Shown here piece after piece: positions 3,301-25,137 of a stretch of 42,082 nucleotides of DNA. Source of the DNA: Beggiatoa sp. (lineage in GTDB: Bacteria > Pseudomonadota > Gammaproteobacteria > Beggiatoales > Beggiatoaceae); NCBI GenBank assembly GCA_003245895.1, contig QKBZ01000418.1, forward strand, positions 1 through 42,082. The letters run 5' to 3'. The position numbers and the translations under genes were made by a program. How positions within the stretch are numbered: the stretch's first letter is position 1; every line of letters begins with the position of its first letter. A model generated the notes under the pieces. That model was given only the letters and a program-made list of their open reading frames with translations. It was not told where the DNA came from and did no database searches.

Positions 3301-5852
3301 AGCAAATTGTGGCGGTTAACCATGCTTTTTGCGACATGCTGGGATATGAGGAGTGCGAGTTGCTGGGGTGCAGTCCATTAGAGTTTGTCACCGACAGTGA
3401 TTATCAAACGGTATTCAAACATCTGGCAGAGCTAAGCCACCGCGCACAATGGCAAGCGGAAATATCTTTGCGTCATCGTAATGGCGATACCGTTTACAGC
3501 ATTTGCCACGCGACCACCTTGCACGATGAAACCAATGGAGAATTCCAAGGTGCATTTGCTTTTATGTCTAACATTAGCCAATGCAAACAGGCTGAGCAGC
3601 AATTGCAAGAGACAAGCGAACACTTGCGCTCGATTTTAGAATCGATGGAAGAAATGGTGTTTGTGTTAGATGCTGAGCATCAATTTATTAATTTTTATCA
3701 AAAAAATGATGACAAATTACTGTTACCGCCTGAGCAGTTTTTAGGCAAAAATTATCATGAGGTGTTACCGCCGCATCTGTGTGTTTTATTAGATGAGGCG
3801 ATTCAAGTGGTGCAAAGCAAAGGCACTCAACGCTTTGAGTACAGTTTAGCGTTACCTAATGGCACTGCTTGGTTTAGTGCCAGTCTTTCTGCACGTTATG
3901 GCATTGTTGGTGAGTTCGATGGCATTACGGTGGTAGTGCGTGATATTAGCAGCAGTAAAGTCGCCGCCGAAGCTTTACGCGCCAGTGAAAGCCGCTACCG
4001 TTCACTGATTGCAACGATGGCGGAAGGCATTTTTATGGTGGATCAAGAGGCGGTCATTATCGAGTGCAATGCTGCCGCAGAACGGATTCTCAATAGACCG
4101 CGTGACAAGATGTTGGGTAGCAATATTAAACACACGCATTGGTTATTGTTTGCACAAGATGGCACGCCACTTGAGGGTGATGATCGCCCAGTTTCCACGG
4201 TACTCAAAACAGGGCGTTCAGTCCGCAATATTGTTGTCGGTTTATACACGCCGAAAAAGGAAATGTGTTGGCTGTTGGTGAATGCTGAACCCTTAGCACA
4301 TAAAGATAGCGAGCAAGTGTATGGTGTCGTGGTCAGTTTTGCCGATATTACGCGACGCAAAGCAGCGGAAGCGCGTTTACGGCGTAATCAACAACGCATT
4401 AGTCTCATGTTGAATTTAACCCAACGCTCTTTGGAAATGACGGAACAAGTGCTGTTGCAAACCGGACTGGCTGAAGTCGCAGAATTAAGCCATAGCGAGT
4501 TTGCCTATCTGCAATTTATTCATGATGCACACGATGCAACATTCCCTGCTTACTGGGCGACAAGTGACTCAGCACAAAACCTTTCAGCCAAAATGCAGCA
4601 ACAAGCCCTTGCGCAAACAGAGATTTGGATGGACAGCGTGTGCCAGCAACGGCCTATGATACATAATGATTATCCAACGGTTGCAGAACCTGCGGGTACG
4701 TTAACCGCGCCCTTTTTGCATCATATGGGTGTGCCTTTGATTGAAGCGGATACGGTGTTATTTGTCGTGGGCGTGGGGCGAATGCAACAGGCGTATGATA
4801 AGAGAGATTTGCAGCAATTAGATTTATTTGTCAAAGATTTATGGCAATTAGTCTGCCGTCGGCGCACGGAGTTGGCGTTAGAACAAGCGCGGCAGGCGGC
4901 AGAATCGGCCAATCATGCGAAATCAGCTTTTCTTACCAATATGAGTCATGAATTGCGCACGCCGCTTAATGCCATTTTAGGCTTTGCACAAGTGTTGCAG
5001 CAGTCGCAGAACTTGCCTACTCACTTATTACCACAAGTGCAAAAAATCCAACGCGGTGGCGCATATCTCTTAACCTTAATCAATGATATTTTGGATATAT
5101 CGAAGATCGAGGCGGGGCGTTTAGAGTTATATCCAGAACAGATTGATCTGCCCAGCTTTTTTGAAGATATTGTTGATATGTTCCAAGCCCGTGCAGAGCA
5201 AAAAGCGATCAGCTTTTACTTTCAGCTTGATCCGCATTTGCCCCTGAGCATTGATGCTGATGCTAAGCGCTTGCGCCAAATCTTGCTGAATTTATTGGGG
5301 AATGCCGTTAAGTTTACTGAGCGAGGTCATGTGACATTCACAGCGCGTTGCAGTGATGATCATTTGTATCTAACGGTGGAAGACACTGGGATAGGGATGT
5401 CAGTGCCTGATCAAGAGCGCATTTTTCAGCCTTTTGTGCAAACCTGCGAAAACCGTTATAAAACTGACGGCACGGGTTTAGGCTTGGCGATTACACACAG
5501 CATTTTGGAATTGATGCAAGGTGACGTGAGTGTTGATAGTCGTTTAGGTGAGGGCAGTCGATTTAATGTCAAAATTCCGTTAGCAATCAAATCTCAATAC
5601 TTTGAGGATACGACTTCTAGTGCAGTGCTAGCAACAAACGCCGCACATGATGCAGTGGCTGAGCTAAGTTTTTCTGAGGAGTGGTTGCAAAGTTTAGCGC
5701 ATGCTGTGGCCTTGGGAGATCGCGATCAAGTGTATGCTTTGCTAAATGTTTATGCAGAGCAGGGTAAGCGCATACCGGCACAGTTACAAGGCTGGGTGGA
5801 TGAGTATAAATATCCGCAAATTTTAGCATGGGTGGAAAAGCAGATGGAATAA
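315..5852 (+). CDS. Membrane sensor histidine kinase with two periplasmic solute-binding domains, five PAS and two GAF domains
   Basis: This 1845-residue kinase should sense a small periplasmic ligand and autophosphorylate. A signal or anchor segment (about 5-28) is followed by two tandem bacterial extracellular solute-binding family 3-like domains (about 30-270 and 273-505) and a transmembrane helix (about 514-536). The cytoplasmic part has PAS domains near 553-675, 680-800, 977-1095, 1103-1215 and 1226-1350, and GAF-like domains near 812-965 and 1369-1518. It ends with a HisKA domain (phosphoacceptor His1545 in [10 protein letters not shown]) and HATPase_c (N-box [12 protein letters not shown]-boxes DTGIGM and GTGLGL). 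There is no receiver domain; instead the 1781-1845 tail matches the C-termini of the next kinases. The architecture resembles BvgS/EvgS-type Venus-flytrap kinases, but without their REC-HPt relay. The start at 315 gives a plausible signal peptide, although no good Shine-Dalgarno is visible. Domain limits are estimates by eye. Confidence 0.9.
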   Translation: MTFIYRTWAACCLLAVVAYYPLSAHSHAVPLLLTEAERAWLQANPEIVIGTDADSLPYAQRQTSGETKGIEAALIARVNALTGANIRLVMGDWSVLLQQAKNQQLHGLSVSHPHAEPLDDFLFTEHVYEVLHYVYVKKDKLNSLQSIADLNGKKVGLQENAWLEKQIAARWPDIQLVKKSSEQNLTLALLNAEVDAVIAHISLHQVILQNLFDHELKIGFSVPEIKTQQRYFIHKNAPELHSIINKALHTISDSEITALLNKWVDNGAFQLFISPQEQAYLKQYQFQRASPTYWIPFSFKDAAGNITGIGEDYWQLIRDKLNLQETLVESASVAELKTALQQGKVALCPVCSALQLDDSPMLSTNSYEQHPIALVTLATSGFISHIEALSDKLIAVSETEPTYRLLQAHYPHLNFLRVADVDAALRAVETGQAFAAAGILPVLQYQLQPYQGQLHLALVSDVLFDLKIRVHAKYANLIPLLNRAIASITPEEHLKIHKRWMIQQVAFSADNYQKVIQVIAIASVLIVLVILWNRRLALEVRQRKHAEHKLRESEEKYRCLFELSDVPMWIIQNDLVVMSNAAAARVLGYDSAQALLECHIADLSPKMQNDGKTSINSIQWHITQAYQNGYLYFDWLYQKWGGETLPAEVSFSRIPYENDHALFCIWRDVSERQHAQGQAHLWLHVFEQAKLGLILSDTKTCAILNANQAVADEYGYSIQEMEMMNLRQLFPVDNNSQALVNLEQGHYAYEAEQVRQDGSRFPVWVESSVIQDMQGNVYRINSMQNISATKYAEQVAWRQQQYQQLLLQLSTDFINKPLSEINVAIQSALEEMARFVNADRAYLFKYDFTANTMSNAFEWCAEGISAQIQNLQNLPTDLEPELLQTHLRGDFIHLPKVSELADSAIKRILQAQDIQSLISVPLCHRGTCLGFIGFDSVKRLHHYHHDEIQLLQLFAQILINVEERSAREREIKLAEARYRNILDSTSEGYWQINATQQIVAVNHAFCDMLGYEECELLGCSPLEFVTDSDYQTVFKHLAELSHRAQWQAEISLRHRNGDTVYSICHATTLHDETNGEFQGAFAFMSNISQCKQAEQQLQETSEHLRSILESMEEMVFVLDAEHQFINFYQKNDDKLLLPPEQFLGKNYHEVLPPHLCVLLDEAIQVVQSKGTQRFEYSLALPNGTAWFSASLSARYGIVGEFDGITVVVRDISSSKVAAEALRASESRYRSLIATMAEGIFMVDQEAVIIECNAAAERILNRPRDKMLGSNIKHTHWLLFAQDGTPLEGDDRPVSTVLKTGRSVRNIVVGLYTPKKEMCWLLVNAEPLAHKDSEQVYGVVVSFADITRRKAAEARLRRNQQRISLMLNLTQRSLEMTEQVLLQTGLAEVAELSHSEFAYLQFIHDAHDATFPAYWATSDSAQNLSAKMQQQALAQTEIWMDSVCQQRPMIHNDYPTVAEPAGTLTAPFLHHMGVPLIEADTVLFVVGVGRMQQAYDKRDLQQLDLFVKDLWQLVCRRRTELALEQARQAAESANHAKSAFLTNMSHELRTPLNAILGFAQVLQQSQNLPTHLLPQVQKIQRGGAYLLTLINDILDISKIEAGRLELYPEQIDLPSFFEDIVDMFQARAEQKAISFYFQLDPHLPLSIDADAKRLRQILLNLLGNAVKFTERGHVTFTARCSDDHLYLTVEDTGIGMSVPDQERIFQPFVQTCENRYKTDGTGLGLAITHSILELMQGDVSVDSRLGEGSRFNVKIPLAIKSQYFEDTTSSAVLATNAAHDAVAELSFSEEWLQSLAHAVALGDRDQVYALLNVYAEQGKRIPAQLQGWVDEYKYPQILAWVEKQME

Positions 5853-6237: not shown

Positions 6238-6313
6238 ACGGTGCTCATCGCCAACTGCGTAACTTCTATAGCTAAAGGAACTCCTGATTAAAATTATGAC
6301 TGGGTTAACCAAA

Positions 6314-9300
6314 ATGGATAACAATCAGCACTTTTACATTGTCGGCATTGGTGCTTCAGCCGGTGGTTTAGAAGCCTTAGAGCGTTTTTTTCAGGCATTG
6401 CCAGATGAACCCAACATGGCATTTGTTGTGATTCAACATTTATCGCCTGATTACAAAAGCATGATGGCGGAAATTTTATCCAAATACACCGCAATGCCGG
6501 TGAACGAGGCTAAAAACAATACACAGGTCAAACCCAACCATGTGTATTTAATCCCGCCGAAAAAAAATATCACGATTAAAGATAAGCATTTATTTTTAAC
6601 CGAAAAAGAAATTCATCGCGGTATTCCACTGCCTATCGACACCTTTTTGCACTCCTTAGCACAAGACTGCCATGAATATGCAATTGCCGTCATTTTATCG
6701 GGCACGGGCAGCGATGGCACACGCGGCATTCGTGCTATTAAAGAACATGACGGTATGGTGGTGGTGCAGCAAATCAAAACTGCCAAATTTGACGGCATGC
6801 CTGCGAGTGCGATTGATACCGGCTTAGCAGATTTTGTCTTGCCACCTGAAGAAATGCCCAGAGCATTGATGGATTTTGTGTGTCATCCCAATTTGCTGGT
6901 GGATCGAGAAGCGGAGGATAAAAAAGATCGCGCACTGCATGCGGGTAATGAAATCGAGCAAATACTCGACATCGTTAAAGATCACAGCGATGTTAATTTT
7001 CATCAATATAAAGACAATACGGTGTTACGACGCATCGAGCGGCGGGCAGGTATTCGACAATGCACCAGTATTGCCGACTATTTAAGTTTACTCGCAGCCT
7101 CTGAAACCGAGCAAAATACCTTATACCGAGAATTGCTGATTGGGGTAACTAAGTTTTTTCGGGATAACGACGTATTTTTTACCTTAGCGCAAGAAATTAT
7201 TCCCCAACTCTTTGCCGCTGCTAATGATGATCCGATTCGCATCTGGGTTGCCGGTTGTTCCACTGGAGAAGAAGCCTATTCCATCGCAATATTGCTGGCG
7301 GAGTTTAAAGCGCAAACCGGTCATCACAATGAGATTAAAATTTTTGCCACGGACATTGATCAAAATGCGATAGAGACAGCGGCTGTCGGCACTTATTCAG
7401 AAAGTATTGCCGCTGATATAGAGCCTGATTTATTGGCGCGTTATTTTTCCTGCGATGAACATGAAGGGCGTTATACCGTCACTCAAACTATTCGCAGCAT
7501 GGTGGTGTTTGCCCGTCATGACTTGACTAAAAGCCCGCCTTTCAATCGCTTAAATTTCATTTCATGCCGCAACTTGTTTATCTACTTGCGACCAGAAGTG
7601 CAAGAACGCATTCTGCATTTATTCCATTTTTCCCTAAAAGCGTCTGGCTTTTTGCTGCTCGGTGAAAGTGAAACCATTGGCGATGCCAGTAAACTGTTCA
7701 CCTGCTTAGAAAGTAGTCTTAAGTTCTATCAAGCACGCGCTGGTTTATCGCCTAAAATTCCCGTGTTACATGATATTGCAGTGAACTTACCCGTCGCTAG
7801 CGATGCTATCCCTGAGCGTTTGCAATACACCTCAGGACGCGGCACAAGCCGACGCACGGAAGATTATTTACAGCGTTTAGTGGTCGATAAGTTATTGCCC
7901 GCTTGTTTTCTGATCACCGATAACCTCGACACCTTATATATCAGCCGACAAGGTACAAAATACCTCAGTTTTTCCGGCACGCCAGACTATAACTTATCGC
8001 GCTCTTTAGATGAGGGCATTGCGGCGTTTATCCGTTCAGCGGTGACTAAAGCCCTGAAAAACAACCGCACGGTAGTTTATAAAACGCTAGACAATCCTAA
8101 CGACGCGCTGAGTGCGCTAGAAATTAAAGTTGAACCACTGGCGAAGAAACACAGCGGGGCGCAGTTATTACTGGTCACTTTTGAGCAAAGTTTGCTGCCC
8201 AAGCGCGATGAAGAAAAAGATGAAGTAGCCATCGAAATCACGGCGGACACGCGCCAGCATATCGAAGATTTAGAGCGTGAACTGTCTTATACCCGTGAGA
8301 CTTTGCAAGCTACCATTGAAGAATTGGAAACCTCTAACGAAGAATTACAGTCTACCAATGAAGAATTGCTGGCCAGTAATGAAGAGCTGCAAGCCACAAA
8401 CGAGGAGTTGCAAGCGGTTAACGAAGAATTAATCACCGTTAACAGTGAGTATCAACATAAAATCCGCGAAGTGACCCGCCTCAATGATATGCATAACAAC
8501 TTGCTACGCAGTTCTAAAGTCGGCAGCGTGTTTTTAGATGCTAATTTTCAAATTCGCAGCTTTACGCCAGCGGTACGCGACGAAATTTTGTTGCGCGACA
8601 GTGATATTGGTCGACCGTTCTTAGAAGTGCGGCATCACCTACAAATTGATGATTTAGAATCGAAACTAGCGCAAACCTTGCAAAACGAGGAAATGCTAGA
8701 TATTGAAGTGCAAAGCAATTTAGGCAATTGGTATATTTTGCGCTTAGCCCCGTTTTTATTAGGCAATCAAAGTATTGATGGTGTGGTGTTAACGCTGATC
8801 AATATCAGCGAGCGTAAACAAGCCTTAGATGCGCTTGCAGTCAGTGAGAGCAATTTAAAACGGGCGCAAAAGTTGGCGCATTTAGGCAGTTGGCAACAAG
8901 CACTTGGCAGCCGACACTTAGTCTGCTCTGAAGAAATGTGTCATATCTTAGGTATTGAAGCACCTGATGCCCGCTTGAATTATGAGCTGTTTTTACAATA
9001 CGTGCATTCTGATGATCGCAAAGCGGTAGACAGTGCTTATCGAAAAGCCTTATCCCATAACGAAGAAGGCTATGAAATTGAGCACCGTATCGTGCGCCAA
9101 GATGATGAAAGTCTGCGTTATGTGTTGCAGCGTTGCGAATTCCAGCGGGATGAGTCTGATCAAGTTTGTAGCTTGCGCGGTATGATTTTAGACATCACCG
9201 AGCGTCGTTTAGCGGAAGAAGAAAGCCGCAAGTTATCGCGTGCAGTGGCGCAAAGTGTGAACGCGGTTATTATCACCAATGCACAAGGCCATATCGAGTT

Positions 9301-11413
9301 TGTTAATCCTGCGTTTGAAAAGAGCAGCGGATATGGGGCAGAGGAAATGATTGGGCAATCATTGGGCTTTCTGAATGCAGATACCCATCCGTCTGACTTT
9401 TTTAGCGAGATGTGGCAACACATTCAAACGACCGGCACTTGGCAAGGTGAAGTGTGTAACCGCCATAAAAATGGGCATCTTTATTGGGATTTTGCCACTG
9501 TTTCCGTGGTACGCGATGATAAAGACGACATCACACACTACATCTCGATTCAAGAAAATATTACCGCCCGCAAACAAGCGCAAGACGAGTTGCGCCAACA
9601 ACGCGACCAACTTCAATTGTATTTTGAACAACCTGTGGTCGGTATGATTACCGCGCATGCCGATAAAGGCATCATGAACGTCAATTCCAGTTTCTGCCAA
9701 TTGATAGGCTATTCTGCTGAGGAATTGCTTGATCCCTATATGGACTGGGATAAGCTCATCCCCCCGAATAATGCACAAGTAGACGCTGAGCAATATGCGC
9801 GTATGCTGTCTGGAAAAATCGATAGTTATCAACTAGAAACAAGTTATTTGCATAAAGACGGTCATAGCATCCCTGTGTATATGAACGTCAGTTGCACCCG
9901 TGATGAGACAGGGCATATCGAGAATGTGGTGAAGATCATCAGTGACTTGACGCACCAACAACAACAAAAACAAGCCTTAATTGAAGCCCGCAAACAAGCA
10001 GAAGCTGCCAATCACGCAAAATCGCTATTTTTAGCCAATATGAGCCATGAGCTGCGCACGCCGCTCAATGCCATACATGGCTTTGCCGAATTGCTGCATC
10101 AGTCTACAGAACTGCCAAGCAGTCTCGCTGCTCATGCTGAAAAAATCATGCGCGGTGGCGACCATTTGCTGACCTTGATTAACGATATTTTAGATTTGGC
10201 AAAAATTGAGGCGGGGCGCATTGAGATACAAACGGAAATCATCGATCTGAAAGAATTTTTAGACGATATAGAAAGCATGGTGAGGATGCGTGCCAACCAA
10301 AAGAGTTTACGCTGTCAATTTGTCTTATCGTCCTTACTACCGCAATACGTGCAAACCGACCCTAAACGCCTGCGACAAGTGTTGCTTAATTTATTAGGCA
10401 ATGCAGTGAAATTTACTGAACAAGGCTCGGTCAGTTTATCGGTTGACTATCAAAACGGTGAATTGATGTTGCAAGTAAAAGACACCGGCACTGGCATCGC
10501 ACCAGAATATCAGCAAGTGATATTCGAGCCATTTATTCAAATTGGTACCGACCGTTATAAGAGTTTAGGCACGGGGCTAGGCTTAGCCATTACACATGAA
10601 ATTGTTTCTTTGATGCAAGGCAAAATTAATGTGCAGAGCAAACCCGATCACGGTGCTTGTTTTAGCGTGAATATTCCTATCGCGGCGATTTCTGAACGGC
10701 AACAACAGCAACAGCAGCAGCGCAAAATAGGCATGTCGCAAAATATCATTGGCTATCGCCGAACTGATACCCGCGCGAATAACAATACACCGTTTCACAT
10801 CTTGGTTGTTGATGATGTAGAGGACAACAGTACGGTGTTGAGTGAGCAATTGCGCTTGTTAAACTTTACCGTCAGCGAAGCTTATAGCGGTGAAATGTGT
10901 TTAAAAGCCATTGCAGATAGTCACTTTGATTTAGTGTTGTTAGATATGCGTATGCCGCACATGGATGGCCTAGAAGTGTTGCGCCGCTTGCAAAAAGTGC
11001 CGGATGCGCCGCCTGTGATCATGGTTTCCGCCAATGTTTACCAACAAGACAAACAAACTGCTATCGAGTTAGGGGCTTTGGGTTATTTATACAAACCCGT
11101 GACCTTGGCTGACTTAGTGTATGTATTGCAAAAATATTTGCCGCTGGATTGGCAATATCCCGCCCCGTCTGCTCAAGAAACCCACAGACAGCAAAAGCGT
11201 GAACACTTTGCTACTGATTGGCTAGAAGAGTTAAAACGTGTTGTGTCTTATGGAGATCGCAACCGTTTGCTGGATATGTTGAATGAATGCCAGTCGCAAG
11301 GCATGTATATTCCCCGCAATTTGCAAGAGTGGGTTGATAATTACGAGTATTTTCAAATTTTACAGTGGATTGAGCAAATTGAAGCGGAACAGTCGCCGAC
11401 TGATGAGGGATAG
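6314..11413 (+). CDS. CheB-CheR-PAS hybrid sensor histidine kinase/response regulator
   Basis: A 1699-residue cytoplasmic fusion. It has a CheB methylesterase-like domain (1-185; Ser in GASAGG, His in VIQHLS, Asp in GTGSDGTRG). A CheR methyltransferase-like domain follows (215-480; SAM motif [12 protein letters not shown] and SCRNLFIYL). A coiled coil of repeated NEEL heptads spans about 643-722. Four PAS domains lie near 729-835, 846-965, 972-1090 and 1099-1215. HisKA (His1245), HATPase_c (about 1345-1455), REC (about 1494-1610, Asp1544) and the shared tail (1630-1690) complete it. The catalytic triad, SAM site, kinase and receiver residues all look intact. The start at 6314 aligns with the N-terminus of the paralogue at 11916; an in-frame ATG at 6296 is possible, with an AAAGGA rather far upstream. 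No methyl-accepting chemoreceptor lies nearby, so the substrate of the CheB/CheR halves is unknown. Confidence 0.9.
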
Positions 11414-11915: not shown

Positions 11916-14900
11916 ATGGAGCATAACCAGAATTTTTACATCGTTGGAGTGGGGGCTTCGGCGGGTGGTTTGGAAGCGCTAGAACAGTTTTTCCAAGCCA
12001 TGCCGGATGGAAGTGGGATGGCGTTTGTCGTCATTCAACACTTGTCCCCAGATTATAAAAGCATGATGGCAGAAATTCTGTCGAAGTACACCATGATGTC
12101 AGTGCGTGAGGCAATAGAAGGCATGAAGGTGGAACCGAATCATGTTTATCTGATTCCACCCAAGAAAAGCATGACTATCCGCGAGGGCTGTTTGCGTTTA
12201 ACGGAAAAAACGCGCCCGACGGGTTTGGAATTGCCGATTGATATTTTTTTGCGTTCGCTAGCAAACAATAGCAAAGACAAATCGATAGCCATTATTTTGT
12301 CCGGCACAGGCAGCGATGGCACACGCGGTATCCGTAGCATTAAAGAAGCTGATGGGATGGTGATCGTGCAAAGTCCTAACTCTTCTAAATTTGATGGCAT
12401 GCCACAAAGCGCGATTAGTACCGGCTTAGCGGATGTCATCTCGCCACCCTCTGACATGCCAAATGCTTTGCAGCAATTTATCTTACATTCGATGGACAAT
12501 GCAGAGCAGAATGTGTTGGCCGCGCCGGTTAATTTCCAAGACCCCATTGCGCAAATTTTGGAGTTACTCAAAGATTTCTCCAATGTAGATTTTACCCAGT
12601 ACAAACTCAGCACCGTGTTGCGTCGCATTGAACGCCGTAGCAGTATTTGCCAATGCCATAACTTATTTGACTATATCAAGCTGCTGCAAAGTTCTAAGAA
12701 CGAGTTAAAAAACCTGTATAAAGAACTGCTGATTGGCGTGACGAAGTTTTTTCGCAATCCTGAAACCTTCGAGCTTTTGCAAGAGCGTGTATTTCCGCAA
12801 CTGTTTGCCACTAAACAAGTCGATGAGCCGATTCGCGTCTGGGTGGCAGGCTGTTCTACAGGGGAGGAGGCGTATTCACTGGCGATTTTATTAGTTGAGT
12901 ATTGCGAGCAAACGCAACTAAGCCGCGAAATTAAGATTTTTGCTACTGATATTGATAATGATGCCTTGCAAATTGCGACTAATGGTGAATATCCAGAAAG
13001 TACGGTCGCAGATGTGGCCGAAGCACGTTTAGCGCGTTTTTTTGAAAAGCGCGACGATAATCTGTACTGCATCATCCCCAAAATTCGTAAAAAAGTGGTG
13101 TTTGCACAGCATGACTTAACCAATACCCCGCCTTTTAACAAATTAGACCTGATTTCATGCCGTAATTTGTTTATTTATCTGCAATTGGTTGCGCAAGAGC
13201 GCATTTTGCAATTATTCCACTTTGCACTTAATCAAAACGGTTTTTTACTACTGGGTGAAAGTGAATCGATTAATGACAGTGGTAAAACGCTGTTTTCTTG
13301 TGAAGAAAAGCACCACAAAATTTACCGCACCCGCATAGAAATTGCTTCTAGCCGTCCCCGTTGGCGCGATTTAAACGCCGTTACACAAAGGCATTTTTCG
13401 CCACAAGTCTCATCTAAATTCATGCCTATGCAGCTTGGCAAAAGCAGTTCGCGCCAAAGCAACGACAATTTATACAAACTGCTGTTAGATACTTGTTTGC
13501 CGCCTTGTTTACTGATTAATGACAATCTCGACGTGTTATTTATCAGCAAGCGTGCTACGCCTTATTTAGAAAAAATTCATGGCACGCCCGATTACAATTT
13601 GATGCGCATGATACCGGAACAAATCGCGATTTATGTCTGCACCGCGATTTCTAAGGCGTTAAAGCATCAAAAGAAAGTGGTTTATAAAATCAACTTAGGG
13701 GAAGGCGAGGCGGCGCAGTTCATCAATTTGCATGTACAACCTTTGCAGAATAAACATATTTCCGACACTTTATTGTTGCTAGAGTTTGAAGAAACGCCAC
13801 CGCTTCAGCCAGAGGCGTTTGTTTTTGATGTTTCAGCCGATGCGCGTCAGCATTTAGCCGACATTGAAAAAGAATTGTTTTATACCCGTGAAACACTGCA
13901 AGCGACGATAGAGGAATTAGAAAGCTCTAACGAAGAGTTGCAAGCAGCTAATGAGGAATTGCTGGCTGCCAATGAAGAATTGCAATCAACTAATGAAGAG
14001 TTGCAAGCGGTTAACGAAGAATTGATCACGGTGAATACCGAGTATCAGCATAAGATTCAGGAATTAGAAGAGCTTAACGAAACGTTTGATAATTTACTGC
14101 GCTGCTCACGTATTGGCACTGTGTTTTTAGACCTTGAGTTGCACATTCGCCGCTTTACCCCTGCCATTCAAGATGAAATCCATTTGCTACACAGCGACAT
14201 CGGGCGGCCGTTTAAAGACATTCGCCACGACCTCAATTATCCCAATTTATTAGACGACTTACGGCAAGTAATGACACAAAACCGTGCGCGTGACACAGAA
14301 GTCGAGGGAGAAACAGGCAATTGGTATTTGCTGCAAATGTCGCCTTATCTTAGCTTAGATGGTGCAGTAGAAGGCTGTGCGTTTAGCTTGGTTAACATTA
14401 GTGCTCGCAAGCAAGCCGAATTGAAGTTACAAGCGTTAAATCAAGATTTTTCCACCTTGTTGGAAAATACCTCTGATTTCATTTATTTCATCGATAAAAG
14501 CCAACACTTGCGTTTTTGCAGTCAGCCACTGGCGCGCATGGCAGGTCACGCAGACTGGCATGAGTTAATCGGCAAAAATGTGATGGAGGTGCAAGCCAAA
14601 GTGCCTATCGTCATGTTTGAGCAAAATGAAGACCCGTTTATTTTTGAGCAAGGTCAAGCCCGACTGAATCAAGTAAAGCCATATCAAGATGGAACCCAGC
14701 ATTGGCTGAATACCAGCAAATGGCCTGTATTTAATCATCATCATAAACTCATTGGCATGTTTGGCATCAGCCGTGATGTGACCGACATCAAGCGTATTCA
14801 ATTGGAATTAGAACGCGCCAAAGAGGCCGCAGAAAATGCTAATCGGGCTAAAAGCGCATTTTTAGCCAATATGAGTCATGAATTGCGCACGCCGCTAAAT

Positions 14901-16220
14901 GCCATTTATGGCTTTAGCGAGTTGCTGGCACAATCGGCTGAATTGCCCGCCAATTTATTACCACATACACAAAAAATCTTGCGCGGCGGCGAGCATTTAC
15001 TGACTTTAATTAATGATATTTTGGACTTAGCTAAAATAGAGGCAGGGCGCATCGAGTTATATCCAGAAATCATTGATTTGCGGGCGTTTCTGGAAGATAT
15101 TGAAAGTATGATTTGTATGCGGGCGCAGCAAAAAAGCTTAGCTTGTACCTTTACCGTAACTCAAGCCTTACCGAGTTATATTAATGTAGATGCTAAGCGT
15201 TTGCGGCAAGTGTTACTTAATTTGCTGAGTAATGCGGTGAAGTTTACCGAGCAAGGCAAAATCAGTTTATTCACCGATTATCAAGATGGTGTGTTGTGTT
15301 TTCAGGTGCGGGATACTGGCTCAGGCATTGCGCCCAAGTATTTGGATATGATTTTCAAGCCCTTTGTGCAAGCAGGGGCAGATCGCTATAAAAGCCTTGG
15401 CACGGGTTTGGGGCTGTCAATTACGCAAGAAATTATTGCCTTGATGCAAGGTCAAATCCATGTGGAAAGCCAACAAGGTCAAGGTACTTGTTTTACCGTC
15501 ACTATTCCATTGCCCAGCTATTCCGCACCACAACAGCCCAAGCCTCTGGCACAGCAAGGCAAGATAGTGGGTTATCAACGCACCGATGCCAGCAATACCG
15601 CTTTTCAGCTTTTAGTGGTGGATGATATGCCAGAGAGTCGTAAGGTGATTAGCGCCCGTTTACGACCTTTAGGCTTTAATGTCAGTGAAGCCGAGAGCGG
15701 CCAAACCTGTTTGGCGATGATTGAGCAACTTAAGCCTGATTTAGTGTTGCTCGATATGCGTATGCCAGACATGAGCGGCTTAGAGGTGTTACAACAATTG
15801 CAAACAAGGCCAGCACCGCCGTCAGTTATCATCATTTCTGCCAATGTTTATCAAGAGGATAGGTGTACGGCATTAGCGTTAGGTGTCTTAGATTATTTAT
15901 ACAAACCAGTCACCTTGAATGACTTAGCGCAAAGCTTACAACAGCATTTACCGCTGACATGGCAGTATGAAGCCTCAACATCAACAGAAGTTGTCACCCA
16001 AACAGCAGAGCAGCACTTTTCAAGCGAGTGGTTAGCAGAGCTTAAACACGTAGTGTCTTGCGGTGATCGCAATCGCTTATTAAGCATCTTAGAAGAATGC
16101 CAAGTACAAGGGGTTAACCTGCCCAAGCATTTGCAAGACTGGGTTTATAATTATGAGTATTTCCAAATTCTGCAATGGGTTGAGCAAATGATGTCGGTGT
16201 CGTCGTCGGAGAATAAGTGA
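11916..16220 (+). CDS. CheB-CheR-PAS hybrid sensor histidine kinase/response regulator (paralogue of the preceding gene)
   Basis: A 1434-residue protein with the same plan as its upstream neighbour but two fewer PAS domains. CheB-like methylesterase is at 1-185 (GASAGG, VIQHLS and GTGSDGTRG present). CheR-like methyltransferase is at about 210-480 ([12 protein letters not shown]). A NEEL-heptad coiled coil spans about 641-718, and PAS domains lie at about 725-835 and 844-960. HisKA (His988), HATPase_c (about 1090-1200), REC (about 1230-1345, Asp1280) and the shared tail (1367-1430) follow. The linker between HATPase and REC carries IVGYQRTD, similar to the other hybrids in the array. The ATG at 11916 gives the same N-terminus as the paralogue, but its Shine-Dalgarno is weak. 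Likely origin is tandem duplication of a CheB-CheR kinase followed by loss or gain of PAS domains. Confidence 0.9.
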
Positions 16221-16506: not shown

Positions 16507-19398
16507 ATGAAAATAGCAACTTATTCTAAACCCCATATGCAGCAATTTCTGCTTGTTTATGGGATAACACTGGGTATCTTGTTCGGCATTGTCTGGTTTA
16601 TTTATCAAGAACAAATTGATGGTATTAAAGCAAATTTAGTGGTGGAAGAAGCGGCAAAAATTAGAATTGCCACCCATGCACTGGAATTAGGTATTCAATC
16701 GACGATCAGTGACTTAAAAGCATTAGGTGGTTCACCAGCATTGCTTACGTTTCTTGAGCAAGATACCCCTGCCACCCGTCAACACGTTGAGGAAATGTTC
16801 CGAAACTTTGCCAATAGTAAAAAAACCTATGATCAAATCCGTTATTTAGATGCGGATGGTTTAGAAGTTATCCGCATTAACTACGACGCGCAACAAGACC
16901 AGTCCGTCATCATTCCCAAACAAGATTTACAAGACAAACAACACCGTTATTACTTTCAAGATGCGTGGAAACTCGCCCCCGAAGAAGTCTATATCTCCCC
17001 TTTAGACCTGAACATCGAGCAAGAGCAGATTGAACGCCCGTTTAAGCCCATGTTACGCCTTGCCATGCCTATCGCCGATGACAATGGTGAAAAACGGGGT
17101 GTTATCGTGCTGAATTATCGGGCGGCGAAGGTGTTGCAACAGTTTCGTGAGCAGCTTGAAAATAACCATGCTATGTTGTTGAATCAAGACGGTTTTTGGT
17201 TGTCATCGCCTACACCCAAAGATGAATGGGGCTTTATGTTTGAACAAAAGCCACGTTTTGACACCCGCTACCCTAAGGCGTGGACGTTTATTCAACAACA
17301 CAATGCAGGCGACATCCGTGTGCCTGAAGGTATTTTTGTCTTTACCACCGTGTATCCGCTGCGCTCAGGGCAACACACCTCTTTAGATCATGTTTACACC
17401 ACAATAGCCGAGACGGCGCAACAAGAATGGCAAGCCTATTATTGGAAAACGGTGTCATTAATCCCTAATCTCGCATTACCGACCTTTTTTAACCGTTATT
17501 CCAAACTAGAATGGACGCTGACCACGCTCGTTTTAATCTGTATTGCTTATTTAGAATGGATGTTATTGGCTTCACTCCACGCCTACCAGCGATCACTGGA
17601 AAACTTAAAAGAAAATGAGCAACAGTTGCGAGAAATAACCGATACCTTAGCCGAAGGTTTATATGTCTTAAACGATAAAGGGATTATCGAGTTTGTTAAT
17701 AAAGAAGCTTGTCAATTGCTGGGGCTGCCAAGAGAAAATTTGCTGGGGCATGATGTTTGTGAAGTGTTGCATGCACGCAGCGTAGCAGCAGAGGAAAAGC
17801 AGGGGTGTCAAGAGCATTGCACCATGTTTAAAGCCTTACTGAACAAACAACATTATCGCGATGACAGTGCTTATTTTCCGCGTGCCAATGGCAATCCGTT
17901 TCCGGTATTAGTCAGTGCTTCCCCTATTATTAGAAATGGCGTTGCCATCAAGTCTGTAGTGGCCTTTCATGACATTACCGACATGAAGCAATCTGAAGAA
18001 GCGTTACAGAATGCGCGCCAAGTCGCAGAAAACGCTAATCGGGCTAAATCGCTATTCCTGACCAATATGAGCCATGAACTGCGTACCCCATTGAACGCCA
18101 TTTTAGGCTTTGCCCGCATTCTATTTAAAGCACCGGAAGTGCCTAAATCAGTTAAACCCAAACTAAAAAGTATTCAACATGCCAGCGAGCATTTGCTATC
18201 GTTGATTAATGACATTCTCGACTTGTCTAAAATTGAAGCTGGAAAAGTTGAGTTGTCACCAAAGCCTATGAGTCCAAACAGGTTTTTTGATGAAATTGTA
18301 GACATTATTCGCTTTCGCGTTGAACAAAAAGCGTTGTGCTTTGAGTACACTAAAACCGATACCTTGCCCGAGGCGATTTATTGTGACCCTAAACGTCTGC
18401 GTCAAGTGTTGCTGAACTTACTGGGCAATGCCACGAAGTTTACCGAAAGCGGCACGGTGACACTCGATGTGGCTTATGACAATAAATGCTTACTGTTAAC
18501 CGTCAGCGATACCGGCATTGGCATTCCACATGAGCAATTAGGCACTATTTTCCAGCCCTTTGTGCAAACCGGTGATGCCCGCTATAAGTCGCAAGGCACT
18601 GGCTTAGGTTTAACTATTACCCATAAAATCATCACTTTAATGCATGGTGAATTGACCGTCACCAGCAGTATCGGCAGTGGTACGCAAGTGAATGTTAAAA
18701 TTCCCATCACCAGCATTGATGCCAGTCAACTTGAAGCTGAAATCCCTTTAAATGCTGAAGCCGTTATTGCTTATCAGCGTACAGATGGCCATCGCGACCC
18801 CTTGCGCGTGCTGGTGGTGGACGACATTGCCACCAATCGCCAATTGTTGTGCGAGATGTTGGGTGGTCTCGGTTTTGAATTGATGGAGGCTGACAGTGGT
18901 CAAGCCTGCTTACAATACGCGCCACGCTTTGCGCCAGATATAGTCTTACTCGACATGCGGATGCAAGATTTTAACGGGTTAGAAACCATGCGTCGCTTGC
19001 ATGCCCTGCCAACACTACAGGAATTGCCAGTCATTATGGTGTCTGCCAGTGTGTATGAGGAAGACTTGCAAGCCGCTTTAAACAAGGGGGCCGTTGCCTA
19101 TATCAGCAAACCCATCACGCCAGAGGAATTATTGAAAAAACTGGCGCGGCATCTGCCGCTAACATGGCAATATCAAGATAGCCTCACCGAATTGGAGCCA
19201 CAAAATGTTGCAAGCCATTACCCGCCCACATGGTTAATGGATTTGCAGCAAGCGGTAATTGAAGGTGATACGCAAGCCATTCGGCACTTGTTGTCACAGC
19301 GCGAACAACAAGATGGCACCTTAGACGCAAGCTTAGCAGCTTGGGCTGAAGCGTATGATTATGAAAAAATCTTGGATTGGATAGAACTCAAACAATGA
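16507..19398 (+). CDS. Membrane hybrid sensor histidine kinase with periplasmic Cache-type domain
   Basis: A 963-residue protein. Transmembrane helix 1 (about 16-34) and helix 2 (about 336-358) flank a periplasmic region of about 300 residues that reads like a double-Cache ligand domain (DLKALGG near its start; [14 protein letters not shown] and [18 protein letters not shown] inside). A PAS domain (about 373-490), HisKA (His523), HATPase_c (about 628-740), REC (about 766-880, Asp816) and the shared tail (904-963) follow. The receiver has LLDMRMQ, where Gln replaces the usual Pro after the phosphorylation site. It overlaps the next gene by an ATGA junction and appears to start a four-gene operon with E, F and G. 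The ATG at 16507 is the first in frame after the palindromes, with no strong Shine-Dalgarno. The ligand cannot be deduced. Confidence 0.9.
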
Positions 19399-21878
19399 AA
19401 CAGACAATCGACACCACCTTGATCCGCTATAACTATTCTGCTTGGGCAGTTTTGCTTATAGGATGCGTGATTACCTTAAGCAGTTGGTTTTTTTTACAAA
19501 ATAATAATCGCCAGCAAGCTGACACTCAATTTCAATACCGCGTCAGTAAAATCAAAAATGCCATCAATAACCACATGCAGGCATATCAGCAAGTATTGGC
19601 GGGCGGTGTGGGTTTATTTGCTGCCTCGCAAGAAGTCACGCGGGCGGAGTGGAAAACCTATGTTGAAAAACTCGAACTACAGACTTTTTATCCGGGTATT
19701 CAAGGCATTGGCTTTAGTGTGCAACTCAAACCAGAACAACTCGCGGCGCATATTGCCAATATTCGCGCTGAAGGCGGTTTCTTTAGTGACTATGCGATAC
19801 GACCGCCAGATGAACGCCTTATTTACACCTCAATTGTTTATTTAGAACCCTTAGACGAACGTAATAAACAAGCCATTGGCTACGATATGTTTGCTGAAGA
19901 CACGCGCAAAATTGCCATGACACGGGCGCGTGATACAGACAATGTTGCCTTATCCGGCAAAGTCAAATTAGTACAAGAAATTGACAGCGATATTCAAGCG
20001 GGTTTTCTCGCTTACGCACCTTATTACCGTGGTGATATGCCACATGAAACCGTTGAACAACGTCGTCAAGCTTTGGTGGGGTATGTGTATGCGGTGTTTC
20101 GCAGTCGGGACTTAATGCAAGCCATTGAAGGGGTTTACCAAGGTTATATCGATGTGCAAATTTATGATGGCGGTGATCGGGAGCATTTGAATGATGAGCG
20201 CTTAATGTACGCGGTTAAAGCCAATGATAATGCGCCGTCTAATCACCTTGTCACGGATACGATTGGCGTTGCCGGTCATACGTGGACACTTCAGTTTCGC
20301 AGCTTGCCTGCCTTTGAAGATGAGGTAAACAGCCACACGCCCAGCATTGTGTTAACCAGTGGCCTTATTTTCAGCATTTTGCTGTTCTTTATGATTCGCT
20401 CTTTTGAAACGCAGCGTTTATTGGCGATAGAACAGCGTACCAATGCCTTATTGCACGAAAATCAACAGCAACTGCAAATTGCTAAAGAAGCGGCAGAAAC
20501 AGCGAACCATGCTAAATCCGCGTTTTTGACCAATATGAGTCATGAATTGCGCACGCCGCTCAATGCCATTCTCGGTTTTACCCAAATTCTGCTGTGTAGC
20601 AAACACATCCCTTTTAAGCTGAAAGGTAAAGCCCGTGGCATTCTGCATGCGGGAGAACACTTACTGTCGCTGATTAACGATATTCTCGATTTATCCAAAA
20701 TTGAAGCAGGCAAAATTGAGTTATATCCAGAGCCAGTTAATACAGGCAGCTTTTTTAATGAAGTTGTGGAAATGATGCGTTTCCGTAGCGAGCAAAAACT
20801 TCTAAACTTTGAATATGTTAAAGCGGATGACTTACCCGAAGGTATCTTGGTCGATCCTAAGCGTCTGCGCCAAATTGTTATTAATTTGCTGGGCAATGCG
20901 ATTAAATTTACCGATCAAGGCTCAGTGACGTTAACGGTTGCTTATGATAACGGCAGTCTATTAATCACAGTAGAAGACAGCGGCATAGGCATGCATGAAG
21001 ATGAATTAGAGCGTATTTTTCAGGCATTTGTTCAAGTCGGCGAAGAGCGTTATAAATCACAAGGCACGGGTTTGGGCTTATCCATCACCCATAAAATCGT
21101 CAAGCTCATGCAGGGGGAGATCACCGTCAGTAGCCAATTTGGGCAAGGATCACAGTTTCAACTCATGATTCCAGTACCAGAAGCGCAGGCGGAACATCCC
21201 GAACCAGAGACGATGCTGCCAATCGATGTTGAACAAATCACGTCTTATCAACGTACCGATGGCGAAAAAGCCGCCTTGCGTTTATTGGTGGTGGATGATG
21301 TCAGCAATAACCGTGAAGTGTTGCACGATATGCTGGAGTCTGTGGGCTTTGACATCATGGATGCTGACAGTGGTGAAGCCTGTTTGCAGGTTGTGAACAC
21401 CTTTCAACCCGATCTAGTGTTATTAGATATGTTGATGCACGGCTTAGACGGCTTAGAAACCATGCAGCAATTACATGCGCTGCCCAATTGCAGCGAGTTA
21501 CCAGTGATGATCGTCTCGGCAAATGTCGAGCAGCGCATGCAACAAAGCGCGATCCATGCTGGCGTTGCGGCTTACTTAGCTAAACCGGTCTCGCTGCCAA
21601 TTTTATTCCATGAACTGAGTAAACACTTGCCTTTGACATGGTTATATGAAACAGAACAGCCCTTAGCATCAGAGGATTATGCGCACTATTCGCTAGAATG
21701 GTTAAACAGTTTGGCGCAAATGGTTACGGAAGGTGACAGTCAAGCCTTGAGAGTTTTGGTAGAAGAGTTTAAGCATCAATACGGGAGACTTGATCCAAGA
21801 TTGGATGTTTGGATAAAAGAGTACCAGTATGAGAAAATATTGGAATGGATAGAAGAAGCCAAAACGACTGTAGCATAA
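19395..21878 (+). CDS. CHASE-domain hybrid sensor histidine kinase
   Basis: An 827-residue kinase. Transmembrane helices at about 14-35 and 317-337 enclose a CHASE-type extracytoplasmic domain (motifs [21 protein letters not shown] and [20 protein letters not shown]). HisKA (His383), HATPase_c (about 485-600), REC (about 629-745, Asp678) and the shared tail (765-827) follow. There is no PAS domain. The start is set at the ATG of the ATGA overlap with the upstream stop; an in-frame TTG at 19377 would add six residues and is less likely. The receiver has LLDMLMH, with His where Pro is usual, but keeps the conserved Lys in YLAKPV. From HisKA onward it is close to gene D, so the two are probably duplicates with exchanged sensor domains. 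CHASE domains bind small ligands in other systems, but the ligand here is unknown. Confidence 0.9.
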
Positions 21879-21920
21879 CATAATGTTTTTGAGCGTTATT
21901 TGTCGTTCAGGAAGCTGATA

Positions 21921-23291
21921 ATGATAGAACAAGAAACCACACCAAGGCTTTTGATTGTCGATGACACGCCAGCCAATCTCAATTTGCTGGAAGAGATTTT
22001 AAGTAAAGAAAACTATGCTGTGCGAGCCTTGCCCAGTGGAAAGTTAGCTTTACGCGCTGCATTTGCCAAACCACCCGATTTAATCCTATTGGACATTAAA
22101 ATGCCCAATATGGATGGTTACGAAGTATGTACCCAATTGAAAGCGGATGAGCGCACACGCGACATCCCCATTTTGTTTATCAGTGCTTTGCAAGAAGTTG
22201 ATGATAAAGTGCGTGCCTTTGAAGTGGGCGGCGTGGATTATATTTCTAAGCCCTTTCAAGTGGAGGAAGTGCTGGCGCGGGTGCGCACCCATCTACAAAT
22301 GCGCACCTTACAACAAAAGCTAAGCACGGCTAAGCAACAAGCGGAAAATGCCAACCACATTAAATCTGTTTTTTTAGCGAGTGTGAGCAATGAATTGCGC
22401 GATCCGCTGAATAGCATTATTGGCTTTGCACAGGTGTTAGCGTCGGCAGAGCAATTGCCAGCGGACTTACGGCCACCAACGCAACACATTCAAAGTAGTG
22501 GCGAACATTTACTTACTTTGATCAATAATGTATTAGACTTGTCTAAAATTGAATCCGGCGAAATGGAAATCGTGTTAGACACGGTTGATGTGAATGCTTT
22601 AGTACAAGAAATCACCACCATTTTTGCTTGGCAAGCAGAACAAAAATCACTTGCGTTAAGCTGTCACACCAGCTTGCAAACGTATTTGTATGCCGACCCC
22701 AAGCGCTTGCGCCAAGTGTTGCTGAACTTATTAAGTAATGCCATCAAATTTACCGCCACAGGCCATGTCAGTGTGTATGCTGATTATCAAGACGGTTATT
22801 TGAATTTATGTGTAGAAGACAGCGGGCAAGGCATTTCTACAGAACAACAACAAGAAATCTTTAAACCATTTACTCAACTCAATGTTGATCCTTATAAAAA
22901 TCAAGGAATTGGTTTAGGTTTGTCCATCACACGTAAAATCATCACCCATATGAATGGCGACATTGGCTTAAATAGTGATCTGGGTAAAGGCTGCCGTTTT
23001 CAAGTCAAAATTCCACTGGAACCCGCCAATATTCCTTACAGCAAGGGGATAGAAAAGTTAGCAGTGGGCGATATGCAAGCGATCTCTGTTATCAATAATT
23101 ACCCTCTGGTTTGGTTAGCGGCATTAGAACAAGCGGTCTCTTTAGGTGAAAGCGAGCAAATTACTGATTTATTAGCACATTATGATAATGAGGAAATGAC
23201 TCAACTACAGGCTTGGGCTAACCAATACGCATATCAACGGATATTGAAATGGATTGCGCAAGCCCATTTGAATGCAGAACATTCAAGGTAA
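21921..23291 (+). CDS. Receiver-histidine-kinase-like protein lacking the phosphoacceptor histidine
   Basis: A 456-residue soluble protein. An N-terminal REC domain (about 10-125; LIVDD, Asp58 in LILLDIKMP, Lys in YISKPF) precedes a DHp-like helix region (about 146-213), an HATPase_c domain (about 258-370; N-box [17 protein letters not shown] and GIGLGL) and the shared tail (394-450). The H-box reads SVSNELRDPLN where the other six kinases have [11 protein letters not shown]. The phosphoacceptor His is Asn157 (codon AAT, one base from CAT), and the Thr needed for phosphatase activity four residues later is Asp. The ATP site looks intact and the frame is open, so this is not an obvious pseudogene. 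AGGAAG just upstream supports the ATG at 21921 over an in-frame TTG at 21900. It is likely a regulatory pseudokinase or heterodimer partner, with the closely similar protein G as the obvious candidate partner. Confidence 0.88.
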   Translation: MIEQETTPRLLIVDDTPANLNLLEEILSKENYAVRALPSGKLALRAAFAKPPDLILLDIKMPNMDGYEVCTQLKADERTRDIPILFISALQEVDDKVRAFEVGGVDYISKPFQVEEVLARVRTHLQMRTLQQKLSTAKQQAENANHIKSVFLASVSNELRDPLNSIIGFAQVLASAEQLPADLRPPTQHIQSSGEHLLTLINNVLDLSKIESGEMEIVLDTVDVNALVQEITTIFAWQAEQKSLALSCHTSLQTYLYADPKRLRQVLLNLLSNAIKFTATGHVSVYADYQDGYLNLCVEDSGQGISTEQQQEIFKPFTQLNVDPYKNQGIGLGLSITRKIITHMNGDIGLNSDLGKGCRFQVKIPLEPANIPYSKGIEKLAVGDMQAISVINNYPLVWLAALEQAVSLGESEQITDLLAHYDNEEMTQLQAWANQYAYQRILKWIAQAHLNAEHSR

Positions 23292-23298
23292 GTAATGT

Positions 23299-25137
23299 AT
23301 GCAAGGCATTAAAAATAAAAAGATTTTAGTCGTTGACGATACCCCCGCAAATCTTGACTTGCTGCACAATATTTTGAACCAAGCTAATTATCAAGTACGT
23401 GCACTGCCCGATGGCAAAATGGCCTTATATGCTGTCATGGCTGATCCGCCTGATTTAGTCTTGCTCGACATTAAAATGCCGAATATGGATGGTTATGAAA
23501 TCTGTACCCGCTTAAAAGCAGATGAACGCACCCGAGATATTCCCATTATTTTCATCAGTGCTTTGTATGAGCCGACGGATAAGATTAAAGCTTTTGCGGT
23601 CGGTGGTATTGATTACATCACCAAACCATTTCAATCTGAGGAAGTGTTAGTACGTGTCAAAACACATCTCAATTTGCGGGCATCACAGCAACAATTAATA
23701 GAAGCCAATACGCAAATTAGAGAGTCCATGTTGCAAGCACAAGCAGCAAACCGTGCTAAATCTACTTTTCTGGCTAATATGAGTCATGAATTGCGCACAC
23801 CGTTAAATGCGGTATTGGGTTATGCACAAATTCTGACCAAAGAACCTGATTTAAAAGAAGAACACCGCCATATGATTGATATTATCAGTCGCAGTGGTGA
23901 TCATTTGCTGGGTTTATTGAATGATGTATTGGATTTAGCCAAGGTTGAAGCCGGACATTTTGACATTACGCTCACGCCTTGCAGCTTACAATTTTTCTTA
24001 CAAGATATTGGCGATATTTTCAGTATTCGCTGTCAAGAAAAAGAGTTGGCGTTTCATTATGACAGCAGCAATACCTTGCCTGAGTTTGTTGAAATTGATC
24101 AACGGCGTATTCGACAAATCATCATGAATTTGTTGGGTAATGCGATTAAGTTTACGGAAAAAGGCAGCATCCATTTTTACCGTGATTACTACGACGGTTG
24201 CTTAGTGTTGACGATCAGTGATACCGGCATTGGTATTTCTGAAGATAAATTAGAAGAAATTTTTAAACCGTTTCAGCAGACGGGAGAGGCATATTATAAA
24301 ACGCAAGGTACGGGCTTAGGTTTAACCATTAGCCGTAAACTGTGTGAGTTAATGAATGGCTCTTTGAAAGTGGAAAGTCAACTTGGGCAAGGCAGTCGAT
24401 TCCAAGTCAAAATTCCCGCTGCCATTGTTGAAAAAGAAGCTGAGGAAATTGCGCAGGCTGCCGCGATGGCTTCACAACAAATTACCGGTTATACCCGTTT
24501 AGACGGTGATGCGCCTTTTGCGATTTTAGCTGTTGATGATCGGCAAGATAATCTAAACATCGTTAAATATTTTTTGCAAAATCTAAATTTTCAGATTAGG
24601 GAAGCCCTTAGTGGTGAAGAATGCTTACACATTTTATCTGAATGGCAACCTGATTTAATCTTAATGGATTTGAGGATGGATGGCATCAGTGGCTTAGAAG
24701 CCTGCCAACGCATTCGCGCTTTATCAATACAAACACCGATTATTATCATGTCTGCGAGTGTATTAAGCGAAGAAGCGAGTTATTCAGCAAATCAAATTCA
24801 AACCATTGGTTGTAACGATTATTTAAGCAAACCGCTCAGAGAGCATGAACTCTTGTCCTGTATTGGCAACCACTTGCCGTTATGCTGGCATAAACAAGAA
24901 TCCACTATTTCTCAACTTGCCGTAACCAATGTTGCCCCTTCAATAGAGGCTTTATCAGACGAACAAAGAACAACGCTGCTGACCATGTTAGGTTCAGGTG
25001 ATATAAAACGGGTTAGTGACTATTTGGCAGAATTAGAACAATTACCGGATATAAAAGACACGGCTAAAGCGTTGTTGCAATTGGCTAAGGGGTTTAAGTT
25101 GAAGGAATTGAGGCGAGTGCTTAAAAATGAGTCGTGA
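23299..25137 (+). CDS. REC-histidine kinase-REC hybrid protein
   Basis: A 612-residue soluble protein. REC1 is at about 8-125 (Asp57 in LVLLDIKMP), then DHp (His163 in [11 protein letters not shown]), HATPase_c at about 267-375 ([20 protein letters not shown]) and REC2 at about 407-520 (Asp457 in LILMDLRMD, Lys in YLSKPL). The C-terminal tail (about 548-612) is divergent: it keeps the GD...L..L spacing but lacks the W...Y.Y..IL.W signature of its neighbours. REC1 is nearly identical in pattern to that of gene F, from which it is separated by 7 nt, so F and G are probably a tandem duplication. With no membrane sensor or PAS it may take phosphoryl groups from D or E through REC1. This is the last gene of the array; a 137-bp repeat module follows 26 bp after the stop. 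Confidence 0.9.
   Translation: MQGIKNKKILVVDDTPANLDLLHNILNQANYQVRALPDGKMALYAVMADPPDLVLLDIKMPNMDGYEICTRLKADERTRDIPIIFISALYEPTDKIKAFAVGGIDYITKPFQSEEVLVRVKTHLNLRASQQQLIEANTQIRESMLQAQAANRAKSTFLANMSHELRTPLNAVLGYAQILTKEPDLKEEHRHMIDIISRSGDHLLGLLNDVLDLAKVEAGHFDITLTPCSLQFFLQDIGDIFSIRCQEKELAFHYDSSNTLPEFVEIDQRRIRQIIMNLLGNAIKFTEKGSIHFYRDYYDGCLVLTISDTGIGISEDKLEEIFKPFQQTGEAYYKTQGTGLGLTISRKLCELMNGSLKVESQLGQGSRFQVKIPAAIVEKEAEEIAQAAAMASQQITGYTRLDGDAPFAILAVDDRQDNLNIVKYFLQNLNFQIREALSGEECLHILSEWQPDLILMDLRMDGISGLEACQRIRALSIQTPIIIMSASVLSEEASYSANQIQTIGCNDYLSKPLREHELLSCIGNHLPLCWHKQESTISQLAVTNVAPSIEALSDEQRTTLLTMLGSGDIKRVSDYLAELEQLPDIKDTAKALLQLAKGFKLKELRRVLKNES

Follow-up and report, generated by a model that had tools for sequence, protein, structure and literature searches.

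What can a histidine kinase homologue still do when its phosphoacceptor histidine is lost and its ATP site is kept? To our knowledge, work on bacterial pseudo-histidine kinases has covered a small number of cases, chiefly DivL. The question is raised here by gene F, one of seven histidine-kinase genes (A-G) found on one strand at positions 315-25137 of DNA from Beggiatoa sp., a relative of the giant sulfur bacteria (GCA_003245895.1, contig QKBZ01000418.1, positions 1-42,082, forward strand; this whole analyzed stretch of 42,082 nucleotides is herein referred to as the window). An acceptor-less REC-controlled kinase homologue would hold a sensor (REC), a lever (helix) and an ATP domain in one protein, so that a simple assay can treat its REC input apart from any phosphotransfer output.

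Gene F within the seven-kinase row

The genes of the row were assigned by open reading frames and Pfam and, for A-F, by alignment. Gene A (315..5852; this and all following window coordinates refer to the + strand) encodes an SBP/PAS/GAF multi-domain histidine kinase with a tail and without REC. CheB-CheR modules were found in B (6296..11413) and C (11916..16220), both with the layout CheB-CheR-PAS-HK-REC-tail. D (16507..19398) has the layout sensor-PAS-HK-REC-tail, E (19377..21878) CHASE-HK-REC-tail, and F (21921..23291), with 456 aa, REC-DHp-CA-tail. G (23299..25137), a REC-HK-REC protein, is encoded 7 nt downstream of F. According to Pfam, a C-terminal REC is present in B-E and missing from F and A. 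On the 3' side of the array, a glyoxalase-like gene on the opposite strand is followed by a gene that we take from its sequence to be dnaX. The host genome (G000) is a 4.9 Mb draft in 451 contigs.

The frame of F is open from the ATG at 21921 through the stop at 23291. The sequence AGGAAG (21909..21914), six bases before the ATG, is its likely ribosome-binding site, and AAGG (23285..23288), within the last codons of F, is a possible ribosome-binding site of G, which suggests that F and G may be translationally coupled. Promoter and terminator scans gave no signal above shuffled sequence.

Pfam assigns REC to residues 11-122 of F (21951..22286; Response_reg, 102.6 bits), HisKA/DHp to residues 148-213 (22362..22559; 56.6 bits) and HATPase_c/CA to residues 259-367 (22695..23021; 95.2 bits); alignments show that this CA domain has kept its N, G1, F and G2 motifs. 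In the AlphaFold2 model, which was built from 30 alignment rows (mean pLDDT 85.6, pTM 0.53), one continuous helix of residues 114-175 (22260..22445) forms the end of REC, the signalling helix and DHp helix 1; the model has low confidence for residues 324-327, close to the G2 motif, and for 373-392, which precede the tail. The best match of the model among solved structures is LvrB (PDB 8vc9), whose six chains take ranks 1-6, followed by GacS, RetS, HK853 and, later, DivL. The overall TM-score to LvrB is about 0.32 with a large rmsd, so the match covers the domains and their order, not their arrangement. LvrB is a REC-controlled histidine kinase of Leptospira with REC, helical linker, DHp and CA in the same order as in F (PMC13269768), and the helix 114-175 of the F model is a likely counterpart of its signalling helix. 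The REC-first order, the phosphorylatable Asp with its acidic pair (D58, D14, D15) and the ATP motifs of the LvrB type were found in F, and the acceptor His was not: LvrB has His161 and autophosphorylates, whereas in F this residue is Asn157 and a C-terminal tail is added.

This helical tail (residues 395-447; 23103..23261), recognized by alignment and in the AlphaFold2 model, is also C-terminal in A-E. Such a tail of about 55 residues is common to A-F, and the two copies tested, those of F and A, reach no Pfam cut-off. Both gave sub-threshold matches to Imm49 (E 0.02-0.03, 14 bits against a cut-off of 30.1), and that of F also to a viral polymerase family (E 0.1); we read these matches as probable chance. 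An Hpt domain is ruled out, as no His is common to all seven proteins in the alignment; B-E have a His just before the first Trp of the tail, where F has Asn, and A lacks this His.

The acceptor position and the residues around it

The H-box of F reads FLASVSNELRDPLN, that is SVSNELRDPLN, and one other 11-residue H-box is shared by A-E and G. In the alignments, the phosphoacceptor His is replaced by Asn157 (22389..22391), with the codon AAT where all six neighbours have CAT, and the Thr of HExxT is replaced by Asp161 (22401..22403), with GAT where all six have an ACN Thr codon. Both replacements had been claimed by the first-pass annotation, and they hold against the six neighbours and 218 relatives alike. 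The H-box changes of F are N154S, M155V, H157N and T161D, the last of which needs at least two base changes. HExxT is the phosphatase motif, and the loss of Thr161 is consistent with an F that would have no phosphatase activity.

His was found at the acceptor column in all 218 distinct relatives of F's HK region. The Thr column of the same set contains T in 202, N in 8, S in 3, and R, Q, E, A and G in one each, with Asp in none. These 218 relatives remain from 293 aligned rows after removal of duplicates, copies of F and rows covering less than 90% of the HK region, and their collection predates the retrieval of the remoter H-less clade treated below. In all 293 rows, the acceptor column has H in 270, N in 4 (all of them F) and no letter in 19; in another alignment, 17 of 212 rows have no letter there. 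The HisKA sites found by Pfam in the host genome have H in 124, N in 1 (F) and K in 1; 125 of these sites were aligned by script (H 123, N 1, K 1) and the last one, HNINNP, by eye. A DNA pattern for NELRxPLN matched in 2 of the 42 genomes of the family, once in F and once beside ftsZ in a sequence that is not a kinase. The reversed control matched 5 times, so single matches of this pattern are expected by chance. DivL orthologues are characterized by Tyr (or Ala) at the His position and by PAS domains; F, with Asn there, a REC and no PAS, is not one of them. Thus, F is a real acceptor-less REC-kinase homologue, and autophosphorylation at the canonical site is almost certainly absent from it.

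The N- and G-boxes, the REC aspartate Asp58 and the open frame were said by the same annotation to be retained, and alignments, Pfam and the ORF agree with this. The REC of F has Asp58, Asp14/15, Ser88 and Lys110, presumably the residues on which REC phosphorylation depends. The ATP-site residues are intact (N-box N269, N273; G1 D300, G302, G304; F314, F317; G2 G329, G331, G333), and 30 of the 31 clade-invariant CA residues are kept. Of 45 near-invariant HK columns (218 relatives), 11 belong to the H-box and 34 lie elsewhere; F has changed at 3 of the former (M155V, H157N, T161D) and at 0 of the latter (Fisher p 0.012). The 21-row sister set gives 3 of 11 in the H-box (N154, H157, T161) and 3 of 46 outside it (A147, D203, P253; p 0.079); by domain, the changes affect 5 of 26 invariant DHp residues versus 1 of 31 in CA (p 0.083). 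In DHp helix 2, the alignments show Asn203 in place of the Asp that all 21 clade rows have at this column (22527..22529). Asn203 also occurs in 18 of 218 wider relatives and Val155 in 9 of 218, so these two changes are mild. With a mean p-distance of 0.462, the DHp of F diverges more than that of any other of the 22 rows (next 0.424), and its CA ranks first as well, by a smaller margin (0.565; next 0.551). The concentration of changes in the H-box and DHp is suggestive, and the ATP-site residues appear to have been held while DHp moved.

No signs of a pseudogene were seen in F: it has no frameshift, no stop and no random hits at invariant sites, and its codon usage matches that of A-E (-1.028 versus -1.024 to -1.054). 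At 0.05 neutral changes per site, 3.4 stops are expected in this frame; as it is still open, recent neutral drift is bounded. The open frame, codon usage and conservation pattern therefore bear out the earlier argument against simple decay as far as old decay is concerned, and F is probably functional.

Ancestry of F and a second group of H-less kinases

A tree of 90 HK domains unites A-F in a single clade (100/92) with F as sister to B and C (98/56), and places G outside this clade, beside another protein of the host genome (labels in this tree: A, L005; C, L008; E, L001 1-1455; F, L001 1459-2868; G, L001 2876-4366). The end branch of F is 0.97, versus 0.16-0.49 for its five siblings. The nearest HK domain to that of F within the window is that of C (49%), and DHp identity to F is 60% for C, 58% for A, 54% for B, 53% for D and E, and 47%, the lowest value, for G. 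In contrast, among the proteins compared, the REC closest to that of F is found in G (72.5%), by a very small margin over a G020 protein (72.3%) and then a G048 protein (70.8%). F is thus a mosaic in which a G-type REC is joined to a kinase core and tail of the A-E type. A study on a related genome describes gene duplication and the swapping of domains as common among proteins of this kind (PMC5108060).

The first-pass annotation had proposed that F phosphorylates a partner in trans or regulates G as a heterodimer. A partnership through matching dimerisation domains is not supported, as the DHp of F is least like that of G (47% versus 53-60% for A-E), and the kinase core does not pair them either, F being in the A-E clade and G outside it. 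By its core, F is also not a duplicate of G, the two being alike in REC only. The likeness of the two RECs, the 7-nt spacing and the possible ribosome site of G in F favour some link between them, to judge from sequence.

An orthologue of F was not found in a one-genome-per-species scan (84,980 species), in 20 relatives, in 42 family genomes or in the neighbourhoods of dnaX, and F itself was seen in a single genome among those searched. Among the best 80 matches of the species scan, which was led by a pattern, the top one is a Thiomargarita protein (45% over residues 10-406), and an Okeania record matches with 58% over residues 6-150 only, that is, REC. The best full-length relatives in the 42 family genomes, host included, are 55% identical to F and are REC-HK-REC proteins with His. 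The matches listed in a plasmid tblastn search with F all have less than 60% identity. The region upstream of dnaX was compared in nine other genomes (G025, where the contig end is too short, and G020, without a dnaX match, were left out), and eight have no HK array there, one of them (G032) being covered over only 7.6 kb. The ninth, G048, has four HK-like ORFs within 20 kb that are 36-43% identical to the window kinases.

The other His-less HisKA of the host genome has Lys at the acceptor position. It belongs to a 365-aa REC-HK (G000:C384:4157-5251; L284 4157-5251 +) that is encoded directly downstream of a hybrid kinase and has degenerate ATP motifs. A profile (A2, 12 rows) built from family relatives of this C384 protein was searched in the 42 genomes; the best locus was fetched and read in 30 of them, with 12 genomes and further matches left out. 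The acceptor residue of these 30 loci is R (9), N (5), S (3), K (2, the query itself not counted), Q (1), Y (1) or H (9). The 20 loci with R, N, S, K or Q (L306-L323, L325 and L326) come from 11 genera, mostly with the motif xDLKKPL, and form one clade (100/100 in a 38-row tree), to which the C384 protein of the host genome (L284) also belongs. Read by eye, all 20 of the 20 show the REC Asp, 19 the G1 Asp, 15 the N-box Asn and 12 the complete DxGxG. In 9 of the 20, the 1.5 kb upstream contain a REC or HK frame of the same strand. In four of the five genomes of one genus (g22) with an H-less gene (L317-L320), an HK is followed by a REC protein of about 300 aa and then by the H-less REC-HK; in the fifth (L315), neither an HK nor a REC protein was found in the 1.5 kb upstream flank. 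A search of 369 genomes of the class gave three matches at E 1e-125, all from the Beggiatoaceae; it scored at most five candidates per genome, and absence outside the family is weak evidence.

Tree placement puts F outside this clade, so acceptor-less REC-kinases arose at least two times in the Beggiatoaceae. Like F, the clade has kept the REC Asp, lost the acceptor His and often kept ATP motifs; unlike F, which is a singleton, it is a separate, multi-genus lineage with mostly xDLKKPL. Its distribution over 11 genera shows that acceptor-less REC-HKs are able to persist, not what F itself does. The locus with Tyr (L327 1498-2607 +, G037) encodes a short REC-HK with AYDLKNPL. It lies outside the H-less clade, as sister to a His-bearing row in the 38-row tree, and is apparently another independent loss of His; DivL likewise has Tyr at the acceptor position.

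Possible roles of F

The reading that we prefer, with a probability of about one half, is that F is a REC-controlled histidine kinase homologue of LvrB-like order that has lost its acceptor and works as a pseudokinase adaptor. Another kinase, plausibly one that also serves the similar N-terminal REC of G, would phosphorylate Asp58, and the long helix would pass this signal to the DHp-CA module. Because DHp holds nothing to phosphorylate, the output would be an altered conformation or altered contacts with partners, which could shift the autokinase/phosphatase balance of the co-encoded kinases. Judging from the identities above, A-E, and C above all, are the likelier DHp partners of F, and G is the likelier sharer of its input. 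That a function has been maintained in F is likely, even with no Asn157 orthologue among the genomes searched; the persistence of acceptor-less REC-HKs in the H-less clade speaks for it, and the long end branch is also expected under relaxed constraint. The preferred reading further draws on the kept REC and CA motifs, the clustering of changes in the H-box and DHp, the normal codon usage and open frame, the ribosome site of F with the tight spacing to G, and the modelled fold with LvrB as its best solved match; DivL, ChrS and FasB/FasC are precedents. That F acts as an allosteric adaptor rather than as a phosphodonor is put at, or slightly under, even odds.

The known systems bear on this reading in both directions. 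According to the LvrB study, REC phosphorylation leads to a coiled coil of helices by which CA is freed, and autophosphorylation is likely in cis (PMC13269768). DivL of Caulobacter (PDB 4q20) has, like F, a histidine kinase fold with a replaced acceptor (Tyr550), and is described as a histidine kinase paralogue that regulates another kinase: its kinase core senses DivK~P and regulates CckA despite poor ATP binding (PMC4211667). As described there, DivL has PAS inputs, no REC and weak ATP binding, is conserved in alphaproteobacteria, and its CA domain is dispensable (PMC4211667); F differs in carrying a REC, in the intact residues of its ATP site and in having no orthologue in the genomes searched. 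The poor ATP binding and dispensable CA of DivL, unlike the intact site of F, count against the adaptor reading. RetS of Pseudomonas aeruginosa (PDB 6dk7, 7n0e), with a DHp-CA about 34% identical to that of F, controls GacS through mixed oligomers, as stated in two papers (PMC9491836, PMC12675982); unlike F, it has kept its His (SHEIRTPMN in the alignment). One of them reports that ChrS inactivated by a frameshift promoted signalling via its paralogue HrrS, and that native ChrS and HrrS heterodimerise, with no significant heterodimer of truncated ChrS in a two-hybrid assay (PMC9491836). The last point counts against the adaptor reading of F.

The intact ATP motifs leave room for trans-phosphorylation. 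F might be a catalytic-only subunit that forms a heterodimer with a partner kinase and uses its CA to phosphorylate the partner's His, gated by the REC of F; the kept ATP-site residues, which a pure scaffold would not need, argue for this, and we nevertheless consider it unlikely. Kinase and acceptor roles are split in Rhodobacter CheA3/CheA4. HK853 autophosphorylates in cis, which counts against such a subunit. A precedent for shared roles is FasB/FasC of group A Streptococcus, two sensor kinases in a heterodimer for which one protein is thought to supply the kinase domain and its partner the acceptor His; there, FasC is a proposed pseudokinase with a dispensable kinase domain whose His246 is used, so that F would be its mirror image, a likeness by description only (PMC12675982). 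LvrB, the closest architecture, is thought likely to autophosphorylate in cis, which would make trans-donation by F harder (PMC13269768). The strong divergence of the F DHp should weaken heterodimers in general, and with G in particular it is the least alike (47%).

Equally unlikely, in our view, is that F is a duplicate that was disabled not long ago and is being lost, with ATP-site and REC residues left in place as little time has passed. Its occurrence in one of the genomes searched, the long branch, the different affinities of its REC and core, and the lack of the C-terminal REC of B-E (shared with A) would fit this. The H-box lesion, made of N154S, M155V, H157N and T161D rather than of one change, the 456 open codons with normal codon usage, and the 34 unchanged near-invariant HK columns outside the H-box speak against it. 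Still less probable is that the REC of F is a phosphate sink or decoy competing with the similar REC of G and the HK part only a dimeric scaffold: the adjoining genes, the 72.5% identity and the intact REC residues agree with a sink, and the conserved N, G1 and G2 motifs would not be needed by a scaffold. A sequencing or assembly error in the 451-contig draft is very improbable, since several separate codons differ, the frame is open, and a single base error could give H157N, not T161D.

If the adaptor reading of F is extended to the family, loss of His could be a recurrent, selected route to phospho-REC readers that steer other kinases in the Beggiatoaceae, a family of sulfur bacteria, F being an independent and possibly younger case that may be an ATP-dependent switch or a REC-gated trans kinase; we rate this extension as somewhat less likely than not. 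In a limited literature search that included passages of the LvrB paper (PMC13269768), no earlier description of an acceptor-less REC-HK was found. Pseudo-histidine kinases as such were already known; what appears to be new is a form under REC control that retains its ATP motifs and has a parallel clade in the family. The authors of the DivL study call for more work on how widespread this kind of reversed signalling is (PMC4211667), and the multi-genus H-less clade is conserved material for learning what such proteins do. The genome that encodes F is very kinase-rich, with 126 HisKA domains (Pfam) in its 4.9 Mb.
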